A stretch of DNA of 64,000 nucleotides, from positions 1 through 64,000 of the forward strand of contig NZ_FRCS01000017.1 of the NCBI RefSeq assembly GCF_900143005.1, written 5' to 3'. The position numbers and the translations under genes were made by a program. The notes beneath the pieces were generated by a model, which saw only the letters and a program-made list of their open reading frames with translations, ran no database searches and was not told where the DNA came from. Positions 27,508-47,900 of the stretch are shown one piece after another. The DNA comes from Cryptosporangium aurantiacum (lineage in GTDB: Bacteria; Actinomycetota; Actinomycetes; Mycobacteriales; Cryptosporangiaceae). How positions within the stretch are numbered: the first letter of the stretch is position 1; every line of letters starts with the position of its first letter.

Positions 27508-27535
27508 GAGTTTCTCTCCCACGCCTCGTTGCGGG

Positions 27536-29592: not shown

Positions 29593-29786
29593 GGTGCTGC
29601 CTCCAGCGTCAGTGCTCTTTCTGGGCACCCGTCGACGACGCCTCGGGCGTCGGTGAGCAGGGCTTCCGGCACCGGGTCGACCAGGACGATCGGGTCGCCC
29701 TGGTCGTCGCAGTCGAGCAGGTCGGGCGCGTTGCCGTAACAGAGCCCGTGGCCGGCGCAGGCGCGCCGGTCGACGTCCAGCCTCAT
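29589..29786 (-). CDS. [3Fe-4S]-type ferredoxin
   Basis: 65 residues with ligands CAGHGLC and, later, CPERAL. The CxxHxxC...CP spacing, with His at the second cysteine position, is the pattern of actinobacterial ferredoxins that pass electrons to P450s. It overlaps both neighbours by 4 bases. Its likely partner is the P450 at 31361, which is under the same candidate operator. Confidence 0.88.
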   Translation of the reverse strand: MRLDVDRRACAGHGLCYGNAPDLLDCDDQGDPIVLVDPVPEALLTDARGVVDGCPERALTLEAAP

Positions 29787-30683: not shown

Positions 30684-30698
30684 CCTAAATGCTTTAGG
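30684..30698. promoter_or_regulatory. candidate TetR operator, site a
   Basis: CCTAAATGCTTTAGG, a perfect 15-bp palindrome (CCTAAA-N3-TTTAGG). It lies in the divergent promoter region between the SDR-led operon (start 30649) and the TetR gene (30769). It is the clearest of eight related sites in the window. Confidence 0.75.
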
Positions 30699-30768
30699 TA
30701 AATGCCGTCAAGAGATTCGCGGGTGGCGGTGGCGAACGGTCGGATCACCTTCCGGCATAATCGGACGC

Positions 30769-31386
30769 ATGCCAGCCGCACCCCCTCAGCTCACCCGGCG
30801 AACGATCCTGCGAACCGCGATCGACCTACTCGACCGGGACGGTTATGCGGCGTTCAGCCTGCCGCGGCTCGGCGACGAACTCGGCATCCGGACGCCGTCG
30901 CTCTACCACCACTTCCGCGACCGGGCCGAACTGCTGGCCGAGATCGCCCGAGCGGTTGTCCGGGAGACGCCGATCCCGGTGCGGCGTCCCGACGCGGAGT
31001 GGACCGAGTACTTCGTCGAGTTGTCGGTGAACTTCCGGCGCACGATCCTGCGTCACCCGAACACCGCACCGGTGCTCCTGCAGTTCCTGCCCCGCGACGT
31101 CCTGACCTCGCTCTACGAGGAGTCGGCGGTCCTCCTGGCGGAGACCACCGACATCCCGACGTCGGCGCACGTCCTGATCCTCGACGGGCTGGAGCGCTTC
31201 GTGCTCGGCAACGCGCTGATCGAGTCCACCGCACCGCGGGCCGCCGACGGCAACCCGTTCCCCAGCGTCGACCCGGAGCAGCAGCCGCGCCTGGCGGCCG
31301 CGATCGCGGCCAATTCGCTGGACGCCGAGGAGCGGTTCGTCGCGTCGGTGCGGGCGTTTCTCATGGGCGTGGCGGCACTGCCGTGA
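30769..31386 (+). CDS. TetR-family regulator of the catabolic genes (copy 1)
   Basis: 205 residues. Helix-turn-helix: FSLPRLGDELGIRTPSLYHH followed by FRDRAELLAEIARAV. It closely resembles the regulator at 37069 through most of the length (also NFRRTILRHPNTAPVLLQF against NFRTAILRHRHAAPILLQF), so the two are paralogues with a shared fold and probably related ligands. It lies next to site a, consistent with autoregulation. The last 26 bases overlap the convergent P450 gene. Confidence 0.87.
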   Translation: MPAAPPQLTRRTILRTAIDLLDRDGYAAFSLPRLGDELGIRTPSLYHHFRDRAELLAEIARAVVRETPIPVRRPDAEWTEYFVELSVNFRRTILRHPNTAPVLLQFLPRDVLTSLYEESAVLLAETTDIPTSAHVLILDGLERFVLGNALIESTAPRAADGNPFPSVDPEQQPRLAAAIAANSLDAEERFVASVRAFLMGVAALP

Positions 31387-32608
31387 ACCGAATTGGCAGC
31401 TTCGCGACGCTGCGCACCTGGCTGGGCAGCGTCAGCGGCGGGTTGGCCGGGTCGAGCCGGTAGTCCGGGAGGCGCCGATGTAGCTCCTCCAGCGCGATCC
31501 GCAGTTCGATCCGCGCGAGGTGCGAGCCGATGCAGCGGTGCGGGCCGGATCCGAACGCCAGGTGGCGGTTGGGCGTGCGGTCGATGCGCAGCTCGTCCGG
31601 TGCCTCGAACTGGGACTCGTCGCGGTTCGCGCCGCAGAGCAGCAGCAGGAGCTGGTCGCCTGCCTTGACGTGCACGCCGCCGATCTCGACGTCCTGCCGT
31701 GCCCGGCGGCCCATCGAGACGGCCGCCTCGTAGCGGAGGATCTCCTCGACGGCGTCCGGGACCGCGCCGGCGTCGTCGACGAGCCGCTGACGCTGCTCCG
31801 GGTTCGCCGACAGGTGCATGACACCCCAGGCCAGCGCGCCCTGGACGGTGTGCAGTCCGGCGATGAGCAGCAGGAAGAACATCCGGGTGAGCTCTTCGTC
31901 GGTGAGCAGGCGTTCCGCACCGTCCACGGTGACCGGAGCACGCATCAGCTCCGCGGTGACGTCATTCCCGACTACCCCTTCTGGCCCTCGGCGCTCGGCC
32001 ACGACCTTTCCGAAGTACGCGAACATCGACATCGCGGCTTCGGCGCGCGACTGGTCGGCCTGCTCGGGCGTGTCGCCGGGCCGTCCGTTGAGCGCCACCT
32101 CGGTCGCCTCGGTGAACAGCGGTGCGTCGGCCATCGGCCAGCCCATCAGCGCGAGGAACACCCGGGTGGGTAACTCGTGCGCGAACTCCGCGACGAACTC
32201 CGCCTCGCCGCGCGCCGCGAACCCGTCGATCAGCTCGTTGACCAGGTCGCGGATCTGCCCCTCGAGCGCCCGCATCCGCGCCGGGTTGAACAGGGGCTGC
32301 AGCGCGAACCGGTACGCGGTGTGCTCCGGCGGGTCGAGCTCGAGCGGGATGAACTTGCCCTGCCCGGCGTCGACCAGGTTGTTCGGATGGCTGGAGAACA
32401 GGTCGGGGCTGCGCAGGATCTCGTGGACCTCGTCGTAGCGCGTCACGATCCAGTGGCCGCCGTGGGCCGTCGAGTACACCAGCGGCGCTTTCCGGGCCAG
32501 CGCCGCGGCGTGCTCCTGCATGCGGTCGACCGGAATCGTGACCGCCGGATCGTAGATGTCGAAGTCCACCACGCGGTCGGGTGAGACGTCCTCGGTCGTC
32601 GTGGGCAT
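31361..32608 (-). CDS. cytochrome P450
   Basis: 415 residues. Heme-binding loop AFGSGPHRCIGSHLAR (Cys359), ExxR in VEEILRYE (Glu289, Arg292) and a clear I helix. The I helix reads IAGLHTVQ: the usual acidic residue before the conserved Thr254 is His253, which is unusual because that position normally helps proton delivery. It is the only gene leftward of sites b1/b2. Electrons probably come from the ferredoxin at 29589. Substrate unknown. Confidence 0.9.
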   Translation of the reverse strand: MPTTTEDVSPDRVVDFDIYDPAVTIPVDRMQEHAAALARKAPLVYSTAHGGHWIVTRYDEVHEILRSPDLFSSHPNNLVDAGQGKFIPLELDPPEHTAYRFALQPLFNPARMRALEGQIRDLVNELIDGFAARGEAEFVAEFAHELPTRVFLALMGWPMADAPLFTEATEVALNGRPGDTPEQADQSRAEAAMSMFAYFGKVVAERRGPEGVVGNDVTAELMRAPVTVDGAERLLTDEELTRMFFLLLIAGLHTVQGALAWGVMHLSANPEQRQRLVDDAGAVPDAVEEILRYEAAVSMGRRARQDVEIGGVHVKAGDQLLLLLCGANRDESQFEAPDELRIDRTPNRHLAFGSGPHRCIGSHLARIELRIALEELHRRLPDYRLDPANPPLTLPSQVRSVAKLPIRFTAVPPRP

Positions 32609-32695
32609 GGGGAGCCTCCTGTCGGAATTGACGTAGTCGCGCCGGTGCGCGTCGTCCGCGGAGTGCGGGTGGAGCCGGGAAAGGGAAACGATCTC

Positions 32696-32710
32696 CCTAA
32701 AGGTTGTAGG
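32696..32710. promoter_or_regulatory. candidate TetR operator, site b1
   Basis: CCTAAAGGTTGTAGG, one half-site mismatch from the CCTAAA-N3-TTTAGG palindrome. It is in the divergent region between the P450 (start 32608) and the SDR (start 32803). Confidence 0.6.
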
Positions 32711-32753
32711 CTAGTGGTGATGCGGATCACCGGTCAACCGTGATCGCATTTCC

Positions 32754-32768
32754 CCTAAAGTCTTTCGG
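32754..32768. promoter_or_regulatory. candidate TetR operator, site b2
   Basis: CCTAAAGTCTTTCGG, again one mismatch from the palindrome, 44 bases after site b1 and 35 bases before the SDR start. Two sites in one divergent promoter suggest separate control of both genes. Confidence 0.6.
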
Positions 32769-32802
32769 TAAATGCGACAGTTTTCGGACGATCGGAGTGC
32801 CG

Positions 32803-33567
32803 GTGACCACCGTTCTCGACCTCTTCCGCCTCGACGGCCGCGTGGCCGTGGTGACCGGCGCGAGTTCCGGCCTGGGCGCCGGGTTCGCGATCGCGCTCGC
32901 CGAGGCCGGTGCGGACGTCGTCCTCGGCGCGCGGCGGGCCGAGGGACTGGCCGAGACGGCGGTCGCGGTCGAGAAGCTCGGGCGGCAGTGCGTGACGGTG
33001 CCGACCGACGTGACGTCGCCCGAGCAGTGCACGGCGCTGGTCGAGCGGGCCGTGGAGTCGCTGGGGCGGGTCGACGTGCTGGTGAACAACGCCGGGGTCA
33101 GCGCGGTGGTGCCCGCACTGCGGGAGGACCCGGACACGTTCCGGTCGGTCGTGGACGTCAACCTGATGGGCGCCTACTGGATGAGCCAGGCGTGCGCCCG
33201 GGTCATGGCGCCCGGATCCGCGATCGTCAACGTGGCCAGCGTGCTCGGGCTGGTGGCCTCCTCGCTCCCCCAGGCCGCGTACTCGGCGAGCAAGGCCGGC
33301 CTGCTCGGATTGACGCGGGACCTGTCGCAGCAGTGGGCCGGACGGCGCGGCATCCGGGTGAACGCGATCGCGCCGGGGTTCGTCGCCACCGACATGATCG
33401 CCGAGATGTCCGAGGAGAACCTCGGCACGTTCCTGGCGCACTCGCCGCTCGGACGCCTGGGGACGCAGCGGGAACTGGATGCCGCGCTGCTGTTCCTGGC
33501 GTCCCCGGCGTCGGGCTACGTCACCGGCACCACGCTCGCCGTCGATGGTGGGATGTCCGGCCACTGA
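32803..33567 (+). CDS. short-chain dehydrogenase/reductase
   Basis: 254 residues, classical SDR: VTGASSGLGAGFAIALAEAG, NNAGVS, YSASK active site and the C-terminal VTGTTLAVDGGMSGH usual for FabG-like enzymes. GTG 32803 is preceded by GGAG; GTG 32797 and longer upstream starts are less likely because site b2 lies there. Single gene rightward from sites b1/b2. Confidence 0.87.
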   Translation: MTTVLDLFRLDGRVAVVTGASSGLGAGFAIALAEAGADVVLGARRAEGLAETAVAVEKLGRQCVTVPTDVTSPEQCTALVERAVESLGRVDVLVNNAGVSAVVPALREDPDTFRSVVDVNLMGAYWMSQACARVMAPGSAIVNVASVLGLVASSLPQAAYSASKAGLLGLTRDLSQQWAGRRGIRVNAIAPGFVATDMIAEMSEENLGTFLAHSPLGRLGTQRELDAALLFLASPASGYVTGTTLAVDGGMSGH

Positions 33568-33575
33568 GCGGAGCG

Positions 33576-33615
33576 GTGTCACATCTCCGGTGCTATGACG
33601 TCGGGGATGTGACAC
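33576..33615. terminator. bidirectional hairpin terminator
   Basis: Arms GTGTCACATC (33576-33585) and GATGTGACAC (33606-33615) with further pairing inward. It lies at the convergence of the SDR (ends 33567) and the CoA-transferase gene, whose stop codon is inside the stem. Confidence 0.65.
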
Positions 33616-35908
33616 TGCTGTCCTCGTGCAGCACGCCCGCTTCGAGCAACGCGTCGACGTCGGCGAGCGGGGCGCAGATCTCGCGGGTGTGCTGCCCGAG
33701 CCGCGGCGCCGGGCGCAGCGGCGGGTCACCGATCGCGGCGAACCGCGCCGGCCGTGCCGCGGTGGGCAGCGGCTCGGGCAGGTCGTCGTGGTGGAGCGTC
33801 GCGAACGCCTCGCGGGTGGTCAGCTGCGGGTCGGTCAGCTCGTCCGGCAACCGCCGCATGGCACCGGCCGGGACGCCCGCCGCCTGCAGCGTCCGCATCA
33901 CCTCATCCGGCGTCCGCGACGCGGCCCACTCCGCCACCGACGCGTCGCTGTCGACGACCGCGCGGAGACGGGCCCGGTCGGCGTCGTCGCGAACCGCGAT
34001 CACGCACCACTCGTCGTCGCCCGCGCAGGCCACCACCGCGGGCTCCGGCCAGGGCTCCGGAAGCGACAGCCCCAGCGAGGCCGCGGCGAACTGCGTCCCG
34101 AGCTGGAGCAGCGCGACATCGGCCTGGGCGACGCCCACCGTCCGCCCCCGGCCGGTGCGCACCCGTCCGATGACCGACGCGAGCACCGCAACGGCGGTGA
34201 GCTGCGCGGCGATATGGTCGGGGTAGACGGTCGCACCGTCGCAGTAGTCACTTTCGGACGCCGGGCGCCAGCGGGCCGTGACGCCGGTCGCCGCCCGCAC
34301 CAGCGGCCCGTACCCCATCCGGCTGCTCCACGGCCCGGTGTCACCGAACGCACTGCTGTCGGAGATCACCAGCCGCGGGTTCAGCGCGGCCAGCGTCGCC
34401 GGGGAGAACCCGAGCGCGTCCAGCGTGCCCGGCTTGAAGTTCGCGAGGACGACGTCGGCCTCGGCGGCCAGCGCACGGAACAGCGCCGCGCCGTCCGGGT
34501 GGCGCAGGTCCACGCCGATGCTGCGCTTGTTGCGCTGGCCCCACGCGAACGACGCGCTCGTGCCGGAGCCGCGGCGCGACTGCCGTAACCCGTCCGGGAA
34601 CGCCGGGTTCTCGACCTTGACGACGTCCGCGCCGAGGTCGGCGAACACCCGCCCGAGCTCGGCGCCGAACACGATCACGCCGAGGTCGAGCACGCGCAAC
34701 CCCGCCAGCGGCGGATCCCCCGCCCCCACCGGCGGGACCGCCCACGCCACGTCCGCCCCGCCGGCTGCGTCAGCCGCGCCGGCCGAGCCGGCCGCGCGGG
34801 GGGTGACCTCCTCGGCGGGGTGGGCGGGCAGCCAGGTCGCGTGGTCGGCCTGGAGCGCCGGGGTGCGGATTCCGGCGCGTTTTCCGTCGAGCGTCACGTA
34901 CCCGGTCGGCACGCGGGCGGTCACCCCCGGCGCGATCTCGACGTCGTCCAGCGCGCCGGTCACGGCGAAGTGGTCGGCCCCGAGCACCTCGGGCACCGTG
35001 AGCACGGCCGCGACCGGCACCCCGCGGCGCACGCCCTCGGCGACCAGTTCCTCCCGCGACAAATCCCGGAACAGCGCGGCGATCAACGGGTGCAGCCGGT
35101 CGGCCGCGGCGAACCTCGCCGGGATCGTGTCGTAGCGCGGATCGGCGAACTCCGCGGGCTCACCGAGCCAGGAGAACATCGCCCGCCACTGACGCTTGGC
35201 CAGCAGGCAAATCCGCACCTCGCCGTCCCGGCACGCGAACACCGGGTAGAAGTTGCGCGCCTCCGGACGGTCGCGCGGGAACGTCTCGGCACGTCCGGCT
35301 GCCGCGGTGCCCTGCGTCCCGAAGCCGGGGTCGAACCCGTGGACGACACACTCCAGCGCGGACACGTCGACGTACTCACCCGCGCCGGTCCGCAGCCGCC
35401 GCAGGTAGGCGGCGAGCGCCACCCAGGCGGCGTGCGCGCCGACCACCCCGTCGACCAGCCCGGCCGGGGGCAGCAGCGGCGGCCGGCCCGGTAACCCGGA
35501 GCGCGACAGCACCCCACCGAGCGCGGCGAGCACCGGCTCGGGGGCGGACCAGTCCGCGTACGGCCCGGTGTTCCCGAACGGCGTGATCGAGACGACCACC
35601 GCGTCCGGGTAGTCGCCCGGAGCCACCGAGCGCCGCGAGTCGAGCACGATGTCCGCGGTGGCCAGCAGCCCCGCACCCGGCAGCCCCGAGCTCGGGGGCG
35701 CGCCGACCGTCGTGCGCTTGTTCGCGTTGCGCAGCGCGAACGGGAGGCTCTGCCCGGCGTGCAGCGGTGGTTCGAACCGGGACGGCGACCCGCCCGGCGG
35801 TTCGGCCAGCACGACGTCGGCGCCCAGGTCGGCCAGGTACCGACCGCACCACTGCGCCGGGCCGTCGGTGAGGTCGAGAACGCGCACCCCGCTCAGCGGC
35901 AAATCCAC
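33593..35908 (-). CDS. fused double CaiB/BaiF (family III) CoA-transferase
   Basis: 771 residues holding two copies of the ~380-residue CoA-transferase fold. N-half: GVRVLDLTDGPAQWCGRYLA, DLGADVVLAEPPGG. C-half after an Ala/Gly-rich linker: LRVLDLGVIVFGAELGRVFA, DLGADVVKVENPAFP, RNKRSIGVDLRHPDG. Single-chain tandem forms replace the usual homodimer of interlocked rings. It likely transfers CoA between a pathway acid and an acyl-CoA. GTG 35908 sits after GAAGGAG; GTG 35914 would overlap it. Second gene of the reductase operon. Confidence 0.87.
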   Translation of the reverse strand: MDLPLSGVRVLDLTDGPAQWCGRYLADLGADVVLAEPPGGSPSRFEPPLHAGQSLPFALRNANKRTTVGAPPSSGLPGAGLLATADIVLDSRRSVAPGDYPDAVVVSITPFGNTGPYADWSAPEPVLAALGGVLSRSGLPGRPPLLPPAGLVDGVVGAHAAWVALAAYLRRLRTGAGEYVDVSALECVVHGFDPGFGTQGTAAAGRAETFPRDRPEARNFYPVFACRDGEVRICLLAKRQWRAMFSWLGEPAEFADPRYDTIPARFAAADRLHPLIAALFRDLSREELVAEGVRRGVPVAAVLTVPEVLGADHFAVTGALDDVEIAPGVTARVPTGYVTLDGKRAGIRTPALQADHATWLPAHPAEEVTPRAAGSAGAADAAGGADVAWAVPPVGAGDPPLAGLRVLDLGVIVFGAELGRVFADLGADVVKVENPAFPDGLRQSRRGSGTSASFAWGQRNKRSIGVDLRHPDGAALFRALAAEADVVLANFKPGTLDALGFSPATLAALNPRLVISDSSAFGDTGPWSSRMGYGPLVRAATGVTARWRPASESDYCDGATVYPDHIAAQLTAVAVLASVIGRVRTGRGRTVGVAQADVALLQLGTQFAAASLGLSLPEPWPEPAVVACAGDDEWCVIAVRDDADRARLRAVVDSDASVAEWAASRTPDEVMRTLQAAGVPAGAMRRLPDELTDPQLTTREAFATLHHDDLPEPLPTAARPARFAAIGDPPLRPAPRLGQHTREICAPLADVDALLEAGVLHEDSSVTSPTS

Positions 35909-35941
35909 GAGCACTCCTTCGGAATCGGGACGGTCGGGTGG

Positions 35942-36994
35942 TCAGACGTCAAGGATCAGCCGGGCGGACCGCGCCCGGGACACGCACGGGAACATCACGT
36001 CTCCGGCCGCTCGCTCGTCGTCGGTGAGCAGCGAGTCCCGGTGGTCGGGATCGCCGCCGAGGACGGTTGTCTCGCAGGTGCCGCAGGTGCCCTCGCGGCA
36101 CGAGGATTCGATCGCGACCCCGGCGTCCTCCAGGACCTGGAGCAGGCTGACGTCCGCGGCGACCGGCAGCACCCGGCCGGACCGGGCGAGCTCCACCTCG
36201 AACGCCCCGGCCCCGCTGGGAACGGGCTCGGCCCGGGGTGCGAAGCGCTCGGTGTGCAGCGTCAGCGCGGGCCGCGCCGCGCACGCGTCCTCCACCGCGC
36301 GCAGCAGCGGCTCCGGGCCGCAGCAGTACACCGCCGTTCCCGGCGACGCGTCCGCGACGAAGGCCGCCACCGGCAACAGCCCACCCTCATCCGCCGGCCG
36401 CACCTCAACCCGGTCCGCAGTCGAGCCCTCGCCCGCCGCGCCGGCGCGAACGGCGCCCGCCCGACCCCCGACCCGAGCGCCGCGCCCGGCGTCCGGGGCG
36501 GCCGCGCCTAGGGCGACCAGCTCGTCGACGAACGCCATCGACGAGCGGGTGCGGCCGCCGTACAGCAGACGCCAGTCGGCGCCCTCCGCTGCCACCCGGC
36601 GGATCATCGGCAGCAGCGGCGTAATCCCGATGCCACCCGCGACGAACCGGTAGGCCCGCGCCGGTGCGAGCGGGAACCGGTTCCGCGGACCCCCGATCGC
36701 CACCCGGGCGCCGGGCCGCAGCCGCTCGTGGACGAACCGCGACCCGCCCCGGCCGCCCGGCTCGCGTAACACCGCGATCCGCAGGGACGACCGGTCGTCC
36801 GGGCTCCCACAGAGCGAATACTGCCGCACCAGCGACTCGCCGAGCACCAGATCGACGTGCGCGCCCGGCTCCCACGGCGGCACGGCCCCCGACTCCACCG
36901 GCTCCAGCGTCAGCGCGACCACGTCGTCCGCCGCCGCGTCGACGGAAGCGACCACGTAGCTGTTCGTGGCCACCACCCCCAAACCTATTGCCAT
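35942..36994 (-). CDS. oxygenase reductase: FAD/NAD domain with C-terminal [2Fe-2S]
   Basis: About 350 residues. Flavin-binding RQYSLCGSP, NAD loop GGIGITPLLPM, and a C-terminal plant-type ferredoxin domain with CREGTCGTC plus a cysteine 29 residues later (C-x4-C-x2-C-x29-C). This domain order is that of phthalate-dioxygenase-type reductases. It is the natural partner of the Rieske oxygenase at 28414. A disordered Ala/Gly/Arg insert (about residues 177-200) is unusual. The start is unsettled: ATG 36994 lies inside operator site c1, and GTG codons at 36976/36973 are alternatives. Confidence 0.85.
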   Translation of the reverse strand: MAIGLGVVATNSYVVASVDAAADDVVALTLEPVESGAVPPWEPGAHVDLVLGESLVRQYSLCGSPDDRSSLRIAVLREPGGRGGSRFVHERLRPGARVAIGGPRNRFPLAPARAYRFVAGGIGITPLLPMIRRVAAEGADWRLLYGGRTRSSMAFVDELVALGAAAPDAGRGARVGGRAGAVRAGAAGEGSTADRVEVRPADEGGLLPVAAFVADASPGTAVYCCGPEPLLRAVEDACAARPALTLHTERFAPRAEPVPSGAGAFEVELARSGRVLPVAADVSLLQVLEDAGVAIESSCREGTCGTCETTVLGGDPDHRDSLLTDDERAAGDVMFPCVSRARSARLILDV

Positions 36995-36998
36995 TAGG
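36984..36998. promoter_or_regulatory. candidate TetR operator, site c1
   Basis: CCTATTGCCATTAGG, a variant of the 15-bp palindrome. It overlaps the start of the reductase gene and would block transcription of the reductase/CoA-transferase operon. Confidence 0.65.
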
Positions 36999-37024
36999 TT
37001 ACGACCCGGCACGGTAGCACAAAA

Positions 37025-37039
37025 CCTAATGACTGTAGG
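37025..37039. promoter_or_regulatory. candidate TetR operator, site c2
   Basis: CCTAATGACTGTAGG, 30 bases before the TetR gene at 37069, consistent with autoregulation. Together with c1 it makes a double-site divergent promoter. Confidence 0.65.
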
Positions 37040-37068
37040 CTCGAAACCGAGAGAGCGGAGGAACCTCC

Positions 37069-37701
37069 ATGCCCCGGCCCCGCGAGCCGTTGATCAACCG
37101 CACGTCGGCGGTCGACGCCGCCATCCGCATCATCGACACCGAGGGGCTGGACAGCTTCAGCCTTCCCCGGCTGGCGCGCGAGCTCGGCGTCCGCGCGCCG
37201 TCGTTGTACCACCACTTCGCCGACAAGTCGGAGATCCTCGCCGCGGTCTCCCGAACCATCGCGGGTGCCACCGTCATGCCCCGGAAGCCCGCCGACCCGC
37301 AGAAGTGGGTCGACTGGCTCGTCCAGCTGGCGCTCAACTTCCGCACGGCGATCCTGCGGCACCGCCACGCCGCACCGATCCTGCTGCAGTTCCCGCCCCG
37401 GGAGGAGCTCACCCACCTCTACGAGGAGGTCGCCGCCTACCTGGAGCACTGCGGCGTCCCGCGCCACTTGCACGTCCGCATCCTGGACGGAATGGAGAAG
37501 CTGAGCGTCAGCGCGACCGTGAGCGAGGCTCTGCGGCCGCACGCCACCCGGCGGTCGATCTTCCCCGGCGTCGATTCGGCGACCCACCCGACGCTGGCCC
37601 GCGCGGTCGCGGACAATCCGCTGACGCCCAAGCAGCTGTTCGAGGCGACGGTGCGGGCGTTTCTGGCCGGCACGCTTGCGTCGGACTCCGCGCTCGCCTA
37701 A
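37069..37701 (+). CDS. TetR-family regulator of the catabolic genes (copy 2)
   Basis: 210 residues. Helix-turn-helix FSLPRLARELGVRAPSLYHH then FADKSEILAAVSRTI, almost the same recognition helix as copy 1 (30769), which predicts the same operator. It is flanked by sites c1/c2 upstream and d1/d2 at its 3' end. The ligand is probably a pathway CoA ester or the substrate itself, as in other catabolic TetR proteins; that is inference. Confidence 0.87.
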   Translation: MPRPREPLINRTSAVDAAIRIIDTEGLDSFSLPRLARELGVRAPSLYHHFADKSEILAAVSRTIAGATVMPRKPADPQKWVDWLVQLALNFRTAILRHRHAAPILLQFPPREELTHLYEEVAAYLEHCGVPRHLHVRILDGMEKLSVSATVSEALRPHATRRSIFPGVDSATHPTLARAVADNPLTPKQLFEATVRAFLAGTLASDSALA

Positions 37702-37711
37702 ACCTATTAGG
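37697..37711. promoter_or_regulatory. candidate TetR operator, site d1
   Basis: CCTAAACCTATTAGG, overlapping the TetR stop codon and site d2, 29 bases before the acyl-CoA dehydrogenase start. Confidence 0.62.
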
Positions 37712-37717
37712 GATAGG
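37703..37717. promoter_or_regulatory. candidate TetR operator, site d2
   Basis: CCTATTAGGGATAGG, sharing 9 bases with d1. The overlapping arrangement could let two dimers bind opposite faces, as QacR-type repressors do. Confidence 0.55.
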
Positions 37718-37739
37718 TAACCGAGCCGGAGGAGCCACC

Positions 37740-38906
37740 GTGCGGACCGACCTCTTCGACGCCGACCACGAGGCCTACCGCGAGACCGTGCGGAGGTTCG
37801 TGACCACCCGGGTCGTCCCCCGCATGGAGAAGTGGGACGCCGACCGGCTGATCGACCGGGAGACCTGGCTGGCGGCGGGTGCCCAGGGTCTGCTGGGACT
37901 CGCGGTCCCGGCCGAGTACGGCGGTTCCGGTGAGACCGACTACCGGTTCCGGGTGGTCGTCCAGGAGGAGATCGCGCGGGTCGGCGCGTCGGCGCTGCAG
38001 TCGGGCTTCTCCACCAACGACGACATCGTCCTGAACTACCTGCTCCGGCACGCCGACGCCGACCAGCGGGCCCGCTGGCTGCCCGGGTTCGCGACCGGGA
38101 CGACGATCGGCGCGATCGCGATGAGCGAACCGGCGGCGGGCAGCGACCTGCGCGGCATCTCCACCACCGCGACCCGCGACGGCGACGCGTGGGTGCTGCG
38201 GGGCAGCAAGACGTTCATCACCAGCGGCATCCTCGCCGACCTCGTCATCGTGTTCGCGAAGACCGAGGACGAACCTTCGGGCCACGCGCGGCGCGACACG
38301 TTCAGCCTCTTCGTCGTCGAGGACGGCATGCCCGGCTTCAGCCGTGGCCGCAAACTCGACAAGGTCGGCCTGCACGCCCAGGACACCGCCGAGCTGTTCT
38401 TCGACGCCGTGCGGGTCCCCGACCGGAACGTGCTCGGTGAGATCGGCGCCGGGTTCGAGTACCTGATGGGCAGCCTGCCGCTGGAGCGCCTCGGCATCGC
38501 GATCGCCGGGCAAGCGTCCGCCGAGGCCGTGCTGTCGTGGACGCTCGACTACGTCCGGCAGCGCACCGCGTTCGGCAGCCGCATCGGCGACTTCCAGGCG
38601 CTGGCGTTCCGGCTGGCGGAGCTGGCCACCGCGATCGACGTCAGCCGGGCGTTCGTGGACCGCTGCGTGCGCGAGTGGAACGCCGGGACGCTGTCGGCGG
38701 TGGACGCGGCGAAGGCGAAGTACTGGGCCACCGATCTGCAGGGCGAGGTGATCGACGCCGGCGTCCAAATGCACGGTGGGTACGGCTACATGACCGAGTA
38801 CCCGGTCGCGAAGGCCTACCTGGACTCCCGGATCCAGCGCATCTACGGCGGGACGAACGAGATCATGAAGGAGATCATCCGCCGCGACCTCATCGGCCGC
38901 CCCTGA
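37740..38906 (+). CDS. acyl-CoA dehydrogenase
   Basis: 388 residues, full length. FAD/substrate signatures IAMSEPAAGSDLRGISTTA, FITSGILADLVIVFAKT, RQRTAFGSRIGDFQAL, MHGGYGYMTEYPVAK and the catalytic Glu in RIYGGTNEIMKEI. GTG 37740 follows GGAGG. It would introduce the alpha-beta double bond in the pathway's acyl-CoA. Controlled by overlapping sites d1/d2. Confidence 0.9.
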   Translation: MRTDLFDADHEAYRETVRRFVTTRVVPRMEKWDADRLIDRETWLAAGAQGLLGLAVPAEYGGSGETDYRFRVVVQEEIARVGASALQSGFSTNDDIVLNYLLRHADADQRARWLPGFATGTTIGAIAMSEPAAGSDLRGISTTATRDGDAWVLRGSKTFITSGILADLVIVFAKTEDEPSGHARRDTFSLFVVEDGMPGFSRGRKLDKVGLHAQDTAELFFDAVRVPDRNVLGEIGAGFEYLMGSLPLERLGIAIAGQASAEAVLSWTLDYVRQRTAFGSRIGDFQALAFRLAELATAIDVSRAFVDRCVREWNAGTLSAVDAAKAKYWATDLQGEVIDAGVQMHGGYGYMTEYPVAKAYLDSRIQRIYGGTNEIMKEIIRRDLIGRP

Positions 38907-38910
38907 GCAC

Positions 38911-38940
38911 CGGCGCGGCGAGCGCGCACAGCGCGCGCCG
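38911..38940. terminator. GC-rich hairpin between convergent genes
   Basis: Arms CGGCGCG (38911-38917) and CGCGCCG (38934-38940), inner GCGC pairing possible. It separates the acyl-CoA dehydrogenase from the convergent aldehyde dehydrogenase. No T-tract. Confidence 0.45.
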
Positions 38941-38942
38941 CC

Positions 38943-40346
38943 TTAGCCCAAGTAGATCGTTTGCAGGCGGAGGTACGGCTCGAGGCCCTCGGGGCCCAGC
39001 TCCCGACCCAACCCGCTCGCCTTCACCCCACCGAACGGCGCGGCCAGGTCCAGGTCGTAGTGGTTGACCCCCACCGTGCCGGTCTCGATCCGGCGCGCGA
39101 CGGCCAAACCATGCTCCTCGTCCGCCGTCCACACCGTGCCGCCGAGCCCGTACTCCGAGTCGTTCGCCAGCGCCACCGCCTCGTCCTCGGTGCCGTAGGG
39201 GATCACGGCCAGCACCGGGCCGAAGATCTCTTCCTGGGCGATCCGGGAGCGGTTGTCCACGTCCGCGAAGACGGTCGGCTCGACGAACCAGCCCGGACCG
39301 TCGACGGCGCGCCCGCCGGTGGTGAGCCGGGCGGACGCCCCCGCGACGTAACTCAGCACCCGGTCGCGCTGGGCCGCGCTCACCAGCGGCCCGATCTGAG
39401 TGGAGGGCTCCAGCGGATCCCCGACCACCAGCGACCGGACGGCGGAGGTCACCGCGTCCACGATCTCGTCGTAACGGGAACGGGGCGCCAAGATCCGCGT
39501 GCAGGCGTGGCAGGTCTGCCCGTTGTTGGGCAGCGACACGGCGGGAAGCGCCGCGACGAACGCCGAGAGCGGAGCGTCCGCCAGCACGATCGACGCGGAC
39601 TTGCCGCCGAGCTCGAGCGTCGCCGGGCGCAGCAGCCGTCCGGCGGCCGCACCGATCGCCCGGCCGGCGACCGTCGAGCCGGTGAACGCGACCTTCGCGA
39701 CGCCGGGGTGGGTCACCAGGTGTTCCCCCGCGTCGCGGTCCCCCGGCACGACGTTGATGACGCCGGGCGGGAGACCGGCCTCGACTGCGGCCGATGCGAA
39801 CACGAACGCGTCGAGCGCGGTCTCCGGCGGCGGTTTGAGCACGACCGTGCACCCGGCCGCCAGCGCCGGTCCGAGCTTCATCGCGGCGAGCGCCTGCGGG
39901 TAGTTCCACGGGGTGATCGCCGCGACGACACCGACCGGTTCCCGCCGGACGACGTGCCGCCCGCCCGCGAGGCTCGGCCGGGTCTCCTCGAACGCCAGCG
40001 ACTCCGCGAGCCGCGCGTAGTACCGGATGATCGCGGCGGCGCCCCGGCCGTTCACCACGGACGAGAGCGTGATCGGCATGCCGTTCTCGCGGGTCACGAG
40101 CGTGGCGGTCTCCTGACCACGCGCCCGCAGCGCCTTTCCGAACGCGTCGAGCGCCTCGGCCCGCGCAGACGGCGCCCACTGCCCCCACGGCCCCCGCAAC
40201 GCCCGGTTCGCGGCGGCCACCGCCGCGTCGACGTCCGCGCGCCCGCCGAGCGTCACCGTGTCGAACGGCTTCCCGGTCGCCGCCTCGACGACGTCGACGG
40301 TCACCCCGGTCCGGGGCTCCACAAAAGCCCCGTCGATGAAGATCAC
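38943..40346 (-). CDS. aldehyde dehydrogenase (second copy)
   Basis: 467 residues. TPWNYPQALAAMKLGPALAA, FTGSTVAGRAIG, catalytic Glu in TLELGGKSASIV, catalytic Cys in NNGQTCHACTRIL. GTG 40346 sits after GGAGG and overlaps the upstream thiolase-like gene's stop (GTGA), so it is the last gene of the six-gene operon that starts at 44474. A retro-aldol step by the neighbouring proteins would release an aldehyde or ketone that such an enzyme could use. Confidence 0.87.
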   Translation of the reverse strand: MIFIDGAFVEPRTGVTVDVVEAATGKPFDTVTLGGRADVDAAVAAANRALRGPWGQWAPSARAEALDAFGKALRARGQETATLVTRENGMPITLSSVVNGRGAAAIIRYYARLAESLAFEETRPSLAGGRHVVRREPVGVVAAITPWNYPQALAAMKLGPALAAGCTVVLKPPPETALDAFVFASAAVEAGLPPGVINVVPGDRDAGEHLVTHPGVAKVAFTGSTVAGRAIGAAAGRLLRPATLELGGKSASIVLADAPLSAFVAALPAVSLPNNGQTCHACTRILAPRSRYDEIVDAVTSAVRSLVVGDPLEPSTQIGPLVSAAQRDRVLSYVAGASARLTTGGRAVDGPGWFVEPTVFADVDNRSRIAQEEIFGPVLAVIPYGTEDEAVALANDSEYGLGGTVWTADEEHGLAVARRIETGTVGVNHYDLDLAAPFGGVKASGLGRELGPEGLEPYLRLQTIYLG

Positions 40347-41494
40347 AGCGCCTCCTCCGACCCGAACAAAACCGAGCTCACCAGCGGTGCCATCGGGCCT
40401 CCGATGAACAGTGACGTCCGCGCTCCCGGCACCTGGTTGGTCGACGTGCCGCGAATCTGCCGGACCGCCTCGACCGCCAGCCCCATCCCGTTGACGAAGC
40501 TGTCCGCGAGGTTGCCGCCGCTGGTGTTCAGCGGCAGCCGTCCACTCGGCGCGATCAGGTTCTCCAGCGTGAGCACGGAGCCCGCGTCGGCCCCGGGCGG
40601 CACCAGCCCGTGGTCGATCAGCGACGCCACCGCGGGTCCGCTGAAATTTTCGTACACCTGCACGACGTCCACCTCTGACGGTTGAAGGCCTGCCGACGCC
40701 CACAGGCGGCCCGCGACGGTGCGGAACCCCGCACTCGTGTACTCGGCGTCGTTCTCGCCGTGCTCCGAGTACCCGCCCGGCGCGCCCTGGGCTCCGGCGA
40801 TCACGTAGGCGGGGTCCGGACGCAACGCGCGGGCCCGCTCGGCGGACACCAGCAGCAGCGCGACCGCCCCGTCGCTCTCCCGCGAGCAGTCGTAGAGGTG
40901 GAACGGCTCGACGATCAGCCGGGACGCCTCGTAGGCGGCGTCGTCCAGTGGCCGCCCGTAGCCGCTCGCCGACGGGTTCTGCTGCGCGTGGTGGTACGCC
41001 GCGCGGACGAGCGCACGCAGCGCCGACCGCGGTACACCGTCGTGCTCGAGCATTCGCTGCGTACGGAGCGCGCAAACGTGTGCGGGTGCGCCGACGCCCG
41101 CGGCCACGTACCGGTCGTCGAAGTGGTACTTCGCGTAGCCGAGGCGCCCGGTGTCGTCCTGCGCCATCGCCCGGAAGACGACGACACACTCGGCCTGCCC
41201 GGCCGCGATCGCCGCGGCCGCGGTGACCACGGCGGCCGCTGCCCCGCCTCCCCCGCCGCCCCACACCATCGACGACCAGCGCAGTTCGTCGATCATCAGG
41301 TCCGCGCCGAGCACCGGGCCGGACAGGTCACCACCGGCGTAGGAGACGAACCCGTCGACCTCGCGCGGCGAGACACCGGCGTCGCGGCAGGCCGCCAGGA
41401 TCGCCTCCAGCGCCATCCGGTGCTCGTCGCCGGGCGCCCGCCCCCGCCGGTAGTGCTGCTCGGCCACGCCCACGACCGCGGCCGCGCCCCTCAC
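40343..41494 (-). CDS. thiolase-like protein (Ltp2/SCP-x type)
   Basis: 383 residues of the thiolase fold: GVAEQHYRRG, AACRDAGVSPREVDGFVSY, GGGAAAAVVTAAAAIAAGQA, and a C-terminal NTSGGNLADSFVNGMGL. The second active-site elements DVVQVYENFSG and LNTSGGN are those of Ltp2-like proteins, which are aldolases when paired with a DUF35 protein and not true thiolases. The DUF35 gene is directly upstream with a 4-base overlap, strongly supporting a two-protein complex. Confidence 0.83.
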   Translation of the reverse strand: MRGAAAVVGVAEQHYRRGRAPGDEHRMALEAILAACRDAGVSPREVDGFVSYAGGDLSGPVLGADLMIDELRWSSMVWGGGGGGAAAAVVTAAAAIAAGQAECVVVFRAMAQDDTGRLGYAKYHFDDRYVAAGVGAPAHVCALRTQRMLEHDGVPRSALRALVRAAYHHAQQNPSASGYGRPLDDAAYEASRLIVEPFHLYDCSRESDGAVALLLVSAERARALRPDPAYVIAGAQGAPGGYSEHGENDAEYTSAGFRTVAGRLWASAGLQPSEVDVVQVYENFSGPAVASLIDHGLVPPGADAGSVLTLENLIAPSGRLPLNTSGGNLADSFVNGMGLAVEAVRQIRGTSTNQVPGARTSLFIGGPMAPLVSSVLFGSEEAL

Positions 41495-41820
41495 GCGACC
41501 CGCCAGTACACGGTCGACGAGTTCACGTCGCCGACCACCCGGTCACCGATCGCGGGCGCGCGCGATCCGGCGGCCAGCAGCCCGAGCACCCGCACGTTTC
41601 CCGCGCCGGGCAGCTCCGCGAGCACGGTCGTGTACGGCACCTCGAGCTCGGCCACGTACGGATGGTGGCTGCGGCACCAGGTGTAGACCGTGCCCTCGGC
41701 CGCGACCGGTTCCCAGCCCAGGTCGAAGCCGTGGCAGGACGGGCAGATCCGGCGTGGGCCCCAGAGCCACGTGGCGCAGCCCCGGCACCGCTGCACGACC
41801 AGTTGCCCGGCGTCGGTCAC
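41491..41820 (-). CDS. DUF35 OB-fold protein with zinc ribbon
   Basis: 109 residues. Rubredoxin-like zinc ribbon CRGCATW...CPSCHG, then an OB-fold (TVYTWCRSHHPYVAE, PYTTVLAELPG). In steroid side-chain degradation such proteins (ChsH2 C-terminus) bind Ltp2 and make it an aldolase. GTG 41820 is chosen because it overlaps the stop of the preceding gene (GTGA) and has TGGAGA upstream; the frame is open to 41850. Confidence 0.82.
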   Translation of the reverse strand: MTDAGQLVVQRCRGCATWLWGPRRICPSCHGFDLGWEPVAAEGTVYTWCRSHHPYVAELEVPYTTVLAELPGAGNVRVLGLLAAGSRAPAIGDRVVGDVNSSTVYWRVA

Positions 41821-42110
41821 GAAAAGTTCTCCAGCGCGTTCGCCTTCCACGCACCCTCGTGAAGGATCCAGATCGACCGCAGCCCGACCGGCCCGTTCGG
41901 CGTCTCGTACACGGCCTCGCCGATCCAGGTCTCGCCGTCCCGGCGGACGTCGACGATCCGCGCGTCCGTCACCTCGCCGCCGGGCACGGTCACGCCCTCG
42001 AACACCGCCGGGATCCGCTCCGGGACCATGTCGGCCAGCGCGGCCTTGATGTCCCCGGCGACCACGTACCCGACGTGGCGCTCGAACAGCTCGCGAAACT
42101 CGTCAGACAT
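41817..42110 (-). CDS. SnoaL-like NTF2-fold protein
   Basis: 97 residues: FRELFERHVGYVVAGDIKAALADMVPE and a beta-sheet with GPVGLRSIWILHEGAWKANA. NTF2-fold hydratases/isomerases often sit in CoA-ester catabolic clusters. ATG 42110 follows AAGGAG by 10 bases. Between two thiolase-like genes in one operon, it may hydrate an unsaturated CoA ester or be a structural partner. Confidence 0.7.
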   Translation of the reverse strand: MSDEFRELFERHVGYVVAGDIKAALADMVPERIPAVFEGVTVPGGEVTDARIVDVRRDGETWIGEAVYETPNGPVGLRSIWILHEGAWKANALENFS

Positions 42111-42132
42111 GACGGACACACTCCTTCGTGAG

Positions 42133-43575
42133 TCAAAGCAGGGAGCCTGCGGCCACCGTGAACCGCGCCCCGGCGACGTCCTCGGTCAGCAAACGGTCGA
42201 GCAACTCCGGATCGGACGTGCCCGCGAGCGTCCGATCCCCAGCCGCGGTCAGCAACGCCACGAACGCCCGCTCCGGCGCGCCGTCACGGTCGTGCGCGAC
42301 CGTCCACGATTCCACCGTCGCCGGGCCCTCGTAACCCACCAGCGCCCGGCGGATCCGCTCCGCGTCCACCGCGGGCTGCGCGTCGATCCGGGCGAACGGC
42401 TTGGCTGCCGGCCGCGTTCCGTACAGCCCCAGCGCGTGTTTGGTGAGGTAACCGCCGTTGGCGGTCAGCAGGCCGGACCCGCCCTGTTCCCGGAGCGCGG
42501 TGGCCAGCGCGGCGATCGCGTGGGTGCTGTAGTTGTTCCACGGCCCGCCGGCGAACGTGAGCCCGCCGGTGACGGTCAGCGGCCGGTCCGGGTCGAGCCC
42601 GAGCTCGCGGACCGCGACCTGCACCGCGGACGGAAAACACGAGTAGACGTCGACCAGCGCGACGTCGTCCGGCCCGCTCCCGGTGTGCGCGAACAGCTGC
42701 GCGCCCGCGTGCCGGATCGCCGGGGACCGGTGCAGCTCATACCGCTCGGCCACGTCGTACCGGTCGTGGGCCTCGGCGCCCGCGTGCACGAAAATCCACC
42801 GATCGGAGGCGATCCCCAGCCGTGTCGCGCGCTCGACCGAACACAGCAGCACCGCCGCCGCCTGGTCCACCGCGTTGTTCGCGTTGAGCAGCTTCGGGTA
42901 CGGCCAGCTGACCATCCGGCTGGCCAGGATCTCCTCGGGGCTGTGCGACCGCGGTAACCAGGCGTGCGGGTTGGTGGCCGCGACATCGCTGAACCGCGCC
43001 CAGAGCGCGGCGATGCTCGCCTGGTGCTCGGCGACCGGGCGGCCTGCGGCCACCCGGATCGCCTGTTCGAACAGGGGGTACACGTAGGCGGGCCGGTCCA
43101 GGCCGATCCCCACCTGGCCTTCCGTCTTCATGGGGACGTCCGGCAGCGCGACATCGGCGGCCGGTACGGTCTCGTCCTGGACCGTCCAGGCGGGCCGCTC
43201 GCCCCGGGCCCGGAGCTTCGTCCGGGTGCGCCACGCCTCGGCGCCGCCGATCAGCACCGCGTCGGCCCGGCCGGCCGCGATGTCGGCGGCCGCGCGGTTG
43301 ACCAGCGCCTGCGGGCTGTTGCCGCCGGCGCCGGTGTAGCCGGTGCGGCGCACGGTGACGCCGAGCCGCTCGGCGAGCAGCGCGCCGGGGTCCCGGTACC
43401 GCCAGGAGAGCAGGCCGACGACGTCGATCGCGTCGAGGTCGCTCAGGAGTGCGGTGGTGCCGGCTTCGGCGGCGGCACGCTCAGCGGCGTCGACGAGCAG
43501 GTCGACCGGTTCCCGGCCGCCGTCGCGCCAGCTGACCTGTCCCCCGCCGACGAGGACCGGGGTCCGTGGATCCAT
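42133..43575 (-). CDS. thiolase-like acetyl-CoA acetyltransferase family protein
   Basis: 480 residues. Thiolase-fold features: TPVLVGGGQVSWRDGG, RRTGYTGAGGNSPQALVN, DIAAGRADAVLIGGAEAWR, and a C-terminal VDVYSCFPSAVQVAVRELGL followed by TFAGGPWNNYSTHAIAALA. These are the long acetyl-CoA acetyltransferase-like proteins of actinobacteria. Whether it performs thiolysis or another C-C cleavage cannot be read directly. ATG 43575 overlaps the hydratase stop (TGATG). Confidence 0.82.
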   Translation of the reverse strand: MDPRTPVLVGGGQVSWRDGGREPVDLLVDAAERAAAEAGTTALLSDLDAIDVVGLLSWRYRDPGALLAERLGVTVRRTGYTGAGGNSPQALVNRAAADIAAGRADAVLIGGAEAWRTRTKLRARGERPAWTVQDETVPAADVALPDVPMKTEGQVGIGLDRPAYVYPLFEQAIRVAAGRPVAEHQASIAALWARFSDVAATNPHAWLPRSHSPEEILASRMVSWPYPKLLNANNAVDQAAAVLLCSVERATRLGIASDRWIFVHAGAEAHDRYDVAERYELHRSPAIRHAGAQLFAHTGSGPDDVALVDVYSCFPSAVQVAVRELGLDPDRPLTVTGGLTFAGGPWNNYSTHAIAALATALREQGGSGLLTANGGYLTKHALGLYGTRPAAKPFARIDAQPAVDAERIRRALVGYEGPATVESWTVAHDRDGAPERAFVALLTAAGDRTLAGTSDPELLDRLLTEDVAGARFTVAAGSLL

Positions 43576-44474
43576 CAACGGCCCCACTCGTCCGGCCTCG
43601 GCGGCCACTCCGCGACCAGATCGGGCACCGCGTCGCCGGCCGACGCGGTGAACCGCGGCGGGCGTTTCTCCAGGAACGACGCGACTCCCTCGGCCACGTC
43701 CGGCCCGGCGCCGAGCGCGGCGATCACCCGGGAGTCCAGGCGGTGGGCCTCCCACGGGTTCGCGGCGCCGAGCATCGACCACATCATGTGCCGGGCCGCG
43801 GCGACCGCGACCGCCGACGTGTTCTCCGCGATCTCGGTGGCGAGCGCGCGTGCGGTGGTCAGCAGGTCGGCGTCCGGGACCACGCGGGACACCAGGCGGC
43901 CGGTGAGCGCCTCGGCGGCCGGGAAGACCCTGCCGGTCGCCACCCACTCCATCGCCTGCGAGATCCCGACGACCCGGGGCAGGAACCAGCTCGACGCCGC
44001 CTCGGGCACCAGGCCGCGGCGGGCGAAGACGAACCCGAAGCGGGCCGATTCGGCGGCGAGCCGCACGTCCATCGGCAGCGTCATCGTGGCACCGACCCCG
44101 ACGGCCGGTCCGTTGACCGCGGCGATCACCGGCTTCCGCGACGCGGCGATCCGCAGCGCCGCGACGCCACCGAGGTCACGGGGAACGCCGTCGATCGTCT
44201 CGACGGTGCGGGCCTGGGACGGGACGAACGTGGTGGAGCCGCCGCCGAGGTCCGCACCCGCGCAGAACGCCCGGCCGCGGCCGGTGACGATCACCGCCCG
44301 CACCGCGTCGTCGGCGTCGGTCGTGTCGAACGCGGCGACCAGCTCGACGGCCATCCCCGGGGTGAACGCGTTGAGCCGGTCGGGCCGGTCGAGCGTGATC
44401 GTGGCGATGCCGTCGGCCACGTCCAGCGCGATCGTCCCGGCTCCATCCACACTGGTCATCGCCGCCACCGCCAT
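43575..44474 (-). CDS. enoyl-CoA hydratase/isomerase
   Basis: 299 residues, crotonase fold. Oxyanion loops RAFCAGADLGGGS and AAVNGPAVGVGATM, and the catalytic Glu region FARRGLVPEAASSWFLP. First gene of the operon 44474-38943; the promoter carries operator site e1. It should hydrate the enoyl-CoA made by the acyl-CoA dehydrogenase at 37740. Confidence 0.88.
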   Translation of the reverse strand: MAVAAMTSVDGAGTIALDVADGIATITLDRPDRLNAFTPGMAVELVAAFDTTDADDAVRAVIVTGRGRAFCAGADLGGGSTTFVPSQARTVETIDGVPRDLGGVAALRIAASRKPVIAAVNGPAVGVGATMTLPMDVRLAAESARFGFVFARRGLVPEAASSWFLPRVVGISQAMEWVATGRVFPAAEALTGRLVSRVVPDADLLTTARALATEIAENTSAVAVAAARHMMWSMLGAANPWEAHRLDSRVIAALGAGPDVAEGVASFLEKRPPRFTASAGDAVPDLVAEWPPRPDEWGR

Positions 44475-44482
44475 AATCCGAA

Positions 44483-44497
44483 CCTAATGGTTTTAGA
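44483..44497. promoter_or_regulatory. candidate TetR operator, site e1
   Basis: CCTAATGGTTTTAGA, one end base off the palindrome, 9 bases before the enoyl-CoA hydratase start. Confidence 0.6.
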
Positions 44498-44517
44498 CAA
44501 CTCGCACCAGCCTTTCG

Positions 44518-44532
44518 TCTAACTGATTTAGG
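44518..44532. promoter_or_regulatory. candidate TetR operator, site e2
   Basis: TCTAACTGATTTAGG, two bases off consensus, 21 bases beyond e1 in the divergent promoter of the hydratase operon and the APC transporter (44646). Confidence 0.5.
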
Positions 44533-47474: not shown

Positions 47475-47900
47475 TCAGCCGTCCAGCTCGCGCTCCAGCA
47501 CTTCCAGGCCGCGCTCCAGGCCGGCGACGGCGTCGGCGGGCAGGGCGGCCAGCAGGCGCGTCATCGCGGCGTCGAACGTCGGGGTCGCCGCCGCGAGTTT
47601 CTCCCGGCCCGCGGTGGTGAGCACGAGCAGCGACGAGCGACGATCGTCCGGATTGGCCTGTCGTTCGCAGAAGCCCCGCGCCTCGAGCCGGTCGACGGCC
47701 TTGCTGGTGGCGCCGACCGTGAGGTCGAGCGCGCACGAGATGTCCTGCACCCGGCACGGGCCCGGGCCGCTCATCAGGCGGAGGAACTGCAGCGATCCGA
47801 CCGGCAGATCGTGCTCGGCACGCAGGCGAGCGTCGATCACGTTCCAGAGCCGGGTCTCGACCCGCACCAGGGCCGTGAAGAACACGAACGGATCCGCCAT
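47475..47900 (-). CDS. MarR-family regulator
   Basis: 141 residues, winged helix: CRVQDISCALDLTVGATSKAVDRLEARGF then DRRSSLLVLTTAGREKLA, the hallmark wing of MarR proteins. ATG 47900 follows GGAAG. A perfect palindrome between it and the divergent esterase gene is the expected operator. Confidence 0.87.
   Translation of the reverse strand: MADPFVFFTALVRVETRLWNVIDARLRAEHDLPVGSLQFLRLMSGPGPCRVQDISCALDLTVGATSKAVDRLEARGFCERQANPDDRRSSLLVLTTAGREKLAAATPTFDAAMTRLLAALPADAVAGLERGLEVLERELDG

Follow-up and report, generated by a model that had tools for sequence, protein, structure and literature searches.

A Putative Local TetR Repressor Regulon for CoA-Dependent Catabolism in Cryptosporangium aurantiacum

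Introduction

A 15-bp palindrome, CCTAAW-N3-WTTAGG, recurs between positions 30684 and 44532 of a 64,000-nucleotide stretch of Cryptosporangium aurantiacum DNA (contig NZ_FRCS01000017.1, positions 1 to 64,000), which is referred to here as the window. It lies in the promoters of a catabolic gene cluster that encodes two TetR-type proteins, TetR1 and TetR2. The palindrome is nearly absent from the rest of the genome, recurs at related clusters of other bacteria and co-occurs with this group of TetR proteins. Judged from sequence, the palindromes are very probably (probability about 0.87) the operators of the cluster-encoded TetR1 and TetR2, which would act as repressors. The whole appears to be a local regulon under TetR repressors, with about 18 genes that serve the CoA-dependent breakdown of a compound. 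Binding, repression rather than activation, the action of an inducer and the shared use of the sites by both TetR proteins are what we infer.

The Palindrome in the Window and in the Genome

The window was scanned with the 15-bp pattern allowing up to two mismatches, and 100 shuffles served as the control. Eight matches were found, compared to a shuffle mean of 0.14 and a shuffle maximum of 2. Two of them are exact (30684 and 37697), five carry one mismatch (32696, 32754, 36984, 37025, and 44483) and one carries two (44518). The original prediction had listed these eight positions together with 37703. The sequence that it described is present at all nine coordinates; its strict consensus is exact at two only, and 37703 overlaps 37697 and is not separate. 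It had also placed the sites in one stretch of the window and in every divergent promoter there. Every match indeed falls inside 30684-44532, and each of the four divergent promoters, assigned from frame reading as SDR1/TetR1, P450/SDR2, reductase/TetR2, and enoyl-CoA hydratase/permease, holds one or two sites. Besides these, an additional site pair is found between TetR2 and the acyl-CoA dehydrogenase gene. A matrix from the sites of relatives, which were themselves found starting from a matrix of the window sites (see below), places 30684, 36984, 37703, 37025, 44483, 32754, and 44518 as the top seven positions of the window, while 32696 and 37697 rank tenth and eleventh, after positions 1070 and 30677.

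The whole genome (9,579,923 bases in 44 contigs) was scanned with the reversed pattern as the control. Many equally good matches elsewhere had been named beforehand as grounds for doubt; at up to one mismatch the genome holds eight places (five for the control), and seven of these belong to the cluster. At two mismatches there are 30 places vs. 79 for the control, and those outside the cluster are background. An extended 19-mer at up to three mismatches finds 24 places vs. 26 for the control and has little power beyond the cluster. The lone outside place at one mismatch, C21:91589, sits between a divergent TetR-like frame (L034:4798-5526) and a hydrolase-like frame (5614-6618), both by sequence reading. 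It is below threshold with either of the matrices described below, and the sole match in locus L034 lies alongside it at 5568 (refined matrix). This place may be the operator of another regulator.

Places at up to one mismatch number at most four in each of 60 relatives vs. eight in the genome of C. aurantiacum. Three genomes of the same genus hold 0, 1, and 0 such places, and their best-scoring matches to TetR2 are 28-36% identical. The cluster is seemingly absent from these three genomes, yet it is present in distant actinobacteria. This patchy distribution points to horizontal transfer or repeated loss.

Recurrence at Related Gene Clusters

Related loci were collected by scanning 84,980 species genomes with a four-sequence alignment (A1). 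This matched 219 stretches; 147 of them code for a relative, and the 80 best were retained. Together with L031 and L032 from an order-level search they form a set of 82 related loci from Nocardia, Rhodococcus, Gordonia, Mycobacterium, Nocardioides, Pseudonocardia, Frankia, and other genera. In the 80 loci the strict pattern has 3, 24, and 75 matches at zero, one, and two mismatches vs. 0, 1, and 22 for the reversed pattern. A symmetric, 23-column matrix (the window matrix) was then made from the eight window sites alone, with its threshold set at eight expected matches in shuffles. It finds 297 matches in 76 of the 82 loci vs. 8 in shuffles. A refined matrix, built on those matches, finds 347 matches in 76 of the 82 loci and has a consensus of about TAAAYCTAAYGNCRTTAGRTTTA, which means that the flanks outside the 15 bp are conserved too.

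The matches are concentrated between genes. Intergenic-like stretches hold 245 window-matrix matches vs. a mean of 4.1 in ten dinucleotide shuffles and 23 on the reversed sequence; at a strict cut the numbers are 127, 0.1, and 0. None of the 297 matches lies in the gene bodies matched by window proteins, which comprise 47% of the bases (the first 30 bp of each gene excepted). A site is present within 300 bp upstream of most counterparts of SDR2 (21/24), the Rieske gene (33/48), the NTF2-like gene (19/23), and the reductase (22/33), and of 14/30 for SDR1 and 35/82 for TetR. The corresponding fractions are 5/12 for the thiolase-like protein type 1, 11/44 for the ligase, 6/25 for the CoA-transferase, 11/61 for aldehyde dehydrogenase 2 (ALDH2), 1/37 for the OB-fold protein, and 0/40 for the Ltp2-like protein. 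The regulated set thus appears to agree in kind between the window and its relatives, with operons arranged differently there. The spacings of paired sites take many values; 74 bp (about seven helical turns) forms a peak, with 10 pairs in L035-L114. By our reading, most of these pairs occupy the SDR2/reductase promoter in loci of Nocardia. The peak probably stems from shared ancestry.

A second set of loci was chosen independently of the regulator. The Rieske protein was searched at 1e-150 in 394 genomes of the class, and about 20 kb around each locus was taken. Eight genomes besides that of the window contain an orthologue, at 10 loci. The window-only matrix finds sites in all 10, with 38 matches vs. 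1, 0, 0, 0, and 1 in five shuffles, and none of the 38 is inside a matched gene of these loci. One of them (L129) is probably from the same genome as the Frankia locus L104 of the related-loci set. A TetR2 homologue at 1e-40 occurs in 11 of the 394 genomes, and these include all nine Rieske genomes (Fisher p 3e-15 with the genome of the window left out). The TetR gene is inside the fetched stretch at six of the 10 loci, just outside it at two (L126 and L127) and not close by at two (L131 and L132).

The TetR Proteins and Their Fit to the Operator

TetR1 (30769..31386, + strand, 205 amino acids) and TetR2 (37069..37701, + strand, 210 amino acids) both consist of TetR_N and TetR_C_1 domains. They score 42.9 and 46.2 bits for TetR_N (cut-off 24) and 25.4 and 26.6 bits for TetR_C_1 (cut-off 21). 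The original prediction described two TetR paralogues with near-identical recognition helices; the helices read IRTPSLYHHF and VRAPSLYHHF, and the proteins are 45% identical. By sequence, each gene has palindromes in its own promoter, 30684 before TetR1 and 36984/37025 before TetR2.

The best solved relatives of both proteins include class D tetracycline repressors, and the alignment of TetR2 with class D TetR is gap-free across the DNA-binding domain. Relative to class D, Arg28 is replaced by Pro, Gln38 by Ala (Thr in TetR1), Thr40 by Ser, and Trp43 by His, while Pro39, Tyr42, and His44 are kept. TetR1 and TetR2 are identical at the listed contact positions except for the Ala/Thr difference at Gln38. 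Among 89 rows of the family (87 different, both window proteins included), 85 have Pro instead of Arg28; at position 38, 83 have Ala, 3 have Thr, and 3 have Ser. As [AT]PSLYHHF served as one of two patterns in the search, only the Arg28 change is free of such selection. In the tetracycline repressor, Arg28 and Gln38 alone make side-chain hydrogen bonds to bases, to G at +2 and A at +3, and Tyr42 contacts T+4 (PMC7102968). The 16 half-sites of the window carry TAG at +4 to +6 in 15 cases, G at +2 in one, and A at +3 in one. In the family matrix the outer letters are retained, with frequencies of T 0.76, A 0.86, and G 0.96. This fit between protein and operator at the contact residues did not enter the making of the motif, and it argues for TetR1 and TetR2 as the readers of the operator.

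Weighing of the Evidence and Alternative Explanations

Several results count against assigning the palindromes to the two TetR proteins as repressor operators. Six of the 82 related loci are without any window-matrix match, and 52 of the 297 matches are lost under a crude open reading frame caller mask (masked stretches or very short gaps). The related loci share ancestry, and their counts overstate independence. A site upstream is rare in relatives for the P450 (1/36) and the hydratase (2/25), both of which have sites in the window, and is present for 7/26 of the acyl-CoA dehydrogenase genes, while the NTF2-like gene, which often bears a site in relatives, has none in the window. The conservation of the recognition helix is partly built in via the search pattern. 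The frequencies of G+2 and A+3 in the family matrix are 0.31 and 0.21, and the contrast with tetO is weaker outside the window. Finally, two genomes without the Rieske gene (G341 and G110) encode TetR homologues that are 55% and 50% identical, and their fetched stretches contain no window-matrix site; the refined matrix finds one weak match near these TetR genes, at 11.6, just above threshold, in L136. The association of operator and TetR thus holds at clusters of this pathway and not everywhere. We also observed CCTATCCGTATAGG at about 2375-2388 of L137, upstream of the close TetR homologue in the other of these two Rieske-less genomes; it has the same half-site with the arms one base closer.

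It is rather unlikely that the catabolic operators are controlled by TetR2 alone, with TetR1 a mere resident of the cluster whose operator or ligand has become a different one. The best match in the related loci is of TetR2 type at 50% or more in 76 of 82 and of TetR1 type in 2 of 82, as would suit such a division, in a set searched mainly with TetR2-like proteins, and TetR1 is on a long branch. A quick tree, made without bootstrap, separates a TetR1 group of 16 rows (SH-aLRT 91) from a TetR2 group of 68 rows (SH-aLRT 87), and 13 of the 14 loci of the TetR1 group hold 1-8 window-matrix sites (L103 holds none). Such sites are also present at most TetR2-group loci. In genome G294 only one homologue reaches 1e-15. 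This is of TetR1 type (60% identical to TetR1 and 43% to TetR2), and the cluster there, L128, has three sites. In G093:C68, a gene of TetR1 type is preceded by CCTAAATGATTTAGG at a distance of about 110 bp. The near-identity of the two proteins at the contact residues also speaks against a TetR1 with a different operator. The duplication of TetR1 and TetR2 looks old; its placing in the tree is not firm. With the TetR1 type alone in G294 and sites in both groups of the tree, it follows by inference that both TetR proteins read the same operator, and a two-sensor arrangement is therefore possible. As a tentative idea, two ancient paralogues that share one operator could form a dual-input repressor gate, in which two intermediates, both or either, are sensed before the promoters open; other actinobacterial clusters would have only the one or only the other regulator type.

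An activator of TetR type, or a regulator encoded outside the cluster, is an improbable occupant of the sites. L131 and L132 have sites and no close TetR gene in the fetched 20 kb, and the window encodes other regulators, namely a TetR at 21444, a MarR at 47475, and a LacI at 48892. However, these three fall outside the site-bearing stretch, a TetR1/TetR2 homologue is present in 9/9 Rieske genomes among the 394, and the operators of SDR1 and P450 overlap a promoter-like -10 element, as suits repression. That the palindrome arose by chance or from base composition, or is an element of promoters in general, is highly improbable: only 2 of the 9 listed sites match the consensus exactly and A+T-rich words do gather between genes, as in the 23 matches on the reversed sequence at the lax cut, but the rarity in the genome, the intergenic shuffle control (245 vs. 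4.1), and the test on Rieske-selected loci contradict it.

The Individual Operators

The operator CCTAAATGCTTTAGG (30684..30698) is an exact match between SDR1 and TetR1, 35 bp from the start codon of SDR1 and 71 bp from that of TetR1; start codons are here taken from our reading of the frames. It overlaps the -10 element of a promoter-like site of SDR1, TTGACG-18-TAGGCT. The same 15-mer is also present in L111 of Kineosporia babensis. The P450/SDR2 promoter holds CCTAAAGGTTGTAGG (32696..32710, one mismatch) on the P450 side and CCTAAAGTCTTTCGG (32754..32768, one mismatch) 35 bp before SDR2. They are 88 and 146 bp from the P450 start, and the former is 93 bp from SDR2. The operator at 32696 overlaps the -10 element of a promoter-like site of the P450 gene, TTGACC-18-TAGCCT. 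At the other seven gene starts, no TTGAC-type promoter-like match was found by the criteria applied.

The reductase/TetR2 promoter contains CCTATTGCCATTAGG (36984..36998, one mismatch; extended form AACCTATTGCCATTAGGTT) at 11 bp before the reductase start and CCTAATGACTGTAGG (37025..37039, one mismatch) at 30 bp before TetR2. The more distant site of each pair is 52 bp from the reductase and 71 bp from TetR2. In the hydratase/permease promoter, CCTAATGGTTTTAGA (44483..44497, one mismatch) is 9 bp before the enoyl-CoA hydratase start, and the weaker TCTAACTGATTTAGG (44518..44532, two mismatches) is 44 bp from it. The permease start is 149 and 114 bp away from these two sites.

The operator at 37697..37717 spans the stop codon of TetR2, upstream of the acyl-CoA dehydrogenase gene (29 and 23 bp), and comprises the exact match at 37697 together with 37703, which has three mismatches and is shifted by 6 bp. 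The latter constitutes a second, overlapping register rather than a site of its own. That it is not noise is seen from its score of 24.6 with the matrix from relatives' sites, vs. 10.9 for 37697, and from the perfect inverted repeat ACCTAT/ATAGGT at 37702-37718. In relatives, 12/476 flanks score at least 8 at offset 6 and 13/476 at offset 7, and between 0 and 4 do so at each remaining offset to 14. QacR-like operators bind two dimers in overlapping registers about 6 bp apart. Overlapping registers like 37697/37703 were also observed in L035, L037, L040, L041, and L094, as if two dimers could bind, and four of these adjoin the Rieske gene.

Genes of the Cluster and the Pathway

The left operon is on the minus strand. 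It begins with SDR1 (29783..30649) and continues with the alpha subunit of a Rieske oxygenase (28414..29592), a GNAT-like protein (27536..28417), an acyl-CoA ligase (26005..27522), and aldehyde dehydrogenase 1 (ALDH1; 24494..26005). Apart from the GNAT-like protein, these were assigned by family search, with comparison to related loci for ALDH1. The GNAT-like protein has no Pfam match of its own, and its counterpart at L055:13288-14286 matches Acetyltransf_1. Such counterparts, 27-43% identical in the loci listed, adjoin the Rieske gene in several related loci. This suggests an acetyl-transfer or a mycothiol-related role in the pathway. The Rieske orthologue is at least 50% identical in 49 of the 82 related loci and 65-75% identical in the 10 Rieske-selected loci. 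A search of a plasmid collection with the Rieske protein for a clue to the substrate gave a best row of only 34% identity.

In the middle of the cluster, a cytochrome P450 (31361..32608, - strand) has CYP125MRCA entries and then CYP101D1 as its nearest solved relatives. SDR2 (32803..33567, + strand, by family search) is followed by a class III CoA-transferase (33593..35908, - strand) with two CoA_transf_3 stretches, apparently a two-domain or fused pair, and by a ferredoxin-type reductase (35942..36973, - strand) with an NAD-binding domain and a C-terminal 2Fe-2S domain. The acyl-CoA dehydrogenase (37740..38906, + strand) was identified by family search.

The right operon, also on the minus strand, starts with the enoyl-CoA hydratase (43575..44474) and continues with a thiolase-like protein type 1 (42133..43575), both assigned by family search. 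Next is a small protein (41817..42119) with no Pfam match, called NTF2-like by look alone, which has a counterpart at 50% or more in 20 of the 82 related loci. It is followed by a zinc-ribbon/OB-fold partner of ChsH2 type (41491..41850; family search), a thiolase-fold protein (40343..41494; 6ok1 'Lipid-transfer protein', 5.9e-51), which we take to be Ltp2-like, and ALDH2 (38943..40346; family search). An APC-type permease (44646..46121) and a glyoxalase-fold protein (46149..46754) on the plus strand are doubtful members of the regulon.

At an identity of 45% or more, 58 of the 82 related loci share six or more window genes. None of the 82 has a counterpart at 40% or more of the permease, the glyoxalase, or two queried genes left of 24494, and only 3 have one of ALDH1. 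The likely borders of the cluster are therefore 24494 (or 26005) and 44474. The permease and the glyoxalase would be its weakest members, with sites 114-149 bp upstream and no counterparts at that identity. The number of linked genes had been put at about 18, and the count is 18, or 20 if these two are included. Ltp2 and ChsH2 form a retro-aldolase in steroid side-chain breakdown. From the gene set, the pathway would degrade a terpenoid- or steroid-like compound, branched or alicyclic, via CoA esters.

Proposed Mechanism and Significance

In the mechanism that we propose, a TetR dimer would bind with a recognition helix in either half-site, (C)CTA(A/T). In the SDR1 and P450 promoters, the promoter-like -10 region is covered by the operator. 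The bound repressor would shut off the SDR1-Rieske-GNAT-ligase-ALDH1 operon, the P450, SDR2, and the reductase-CoA-transferase genes, as well as the acyl-CoA dehydrogenase, the hydratase-to-ALDH2 genes, and the genes of the regulators. Release of the repressor would come from an intermediate of the pathway, probably an acyl-CoA or an acid.

The matrix identifies the genes of a CoA-dependent pathway that is widespread among actinobacteria, and the operator suggests which of them belong together. It also offers an inducer screen as a route to the substrate of the pathway.

Comparison With Known Systems

Local catabolic regulons under a TetR repressor are a well-known form of regulation. Text searches of the literature found no description of the present operator or gene set; most subscription journals are outside their coverage, and motifs printed only as figures would escape them. 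A comparable published case is 'motif X' with the Rv0767c orthologue of Mycobacterium sp. VKM Ac-1817D, which is likewise a predicted TetR palindrome near P450, SDR, and aldehyde dehydrogenase genes (PMC6593523). Motif X is printed there as a figure only, which neither shows nor excludes identity with the present motif, and the regulator differs by name.

The KstR and KstR2 regulons for steroid catabolism in Mycobacterium and Rhodococcus are similar in that TetR-type repressors control CoA-dependent catabolic genes, and the present cluster encodes Ltp2-, ChsH2-, and CYP125-like proteins. Unlike them, the present regulon is local and contains two paralogues. The motif had been described as distinct from that of KstR, and the KstR pattern cited with that description, TnnAACnnGTTnnA, is matched nowhere in the window (chance expectation 0.02).

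The class D tetracycline repressor resembles TetR1 and TetR2 in its TetR_N and TetR_C_1 domains, its 15-bp palindrome with outer CTA/TAG half-sites, and its Pro39, Tyr42, and His44. The window proteins score 77.9 and 80.8 bits for the NCBIfam TetR equivalog, below its cut-off of 265, and tetO has no match at up to three mismatches in the window. In contrast to class D TetR, they carry Pro in place of Arg28 and Ala or Thr in place of Gln38, their putative operator is mostly changed at +2 and +3, and the genes under their predicted control are catabolic. The present system would represent a natural case of a change in TetR specificity at the two residues that read +2 and +3 of tetO.

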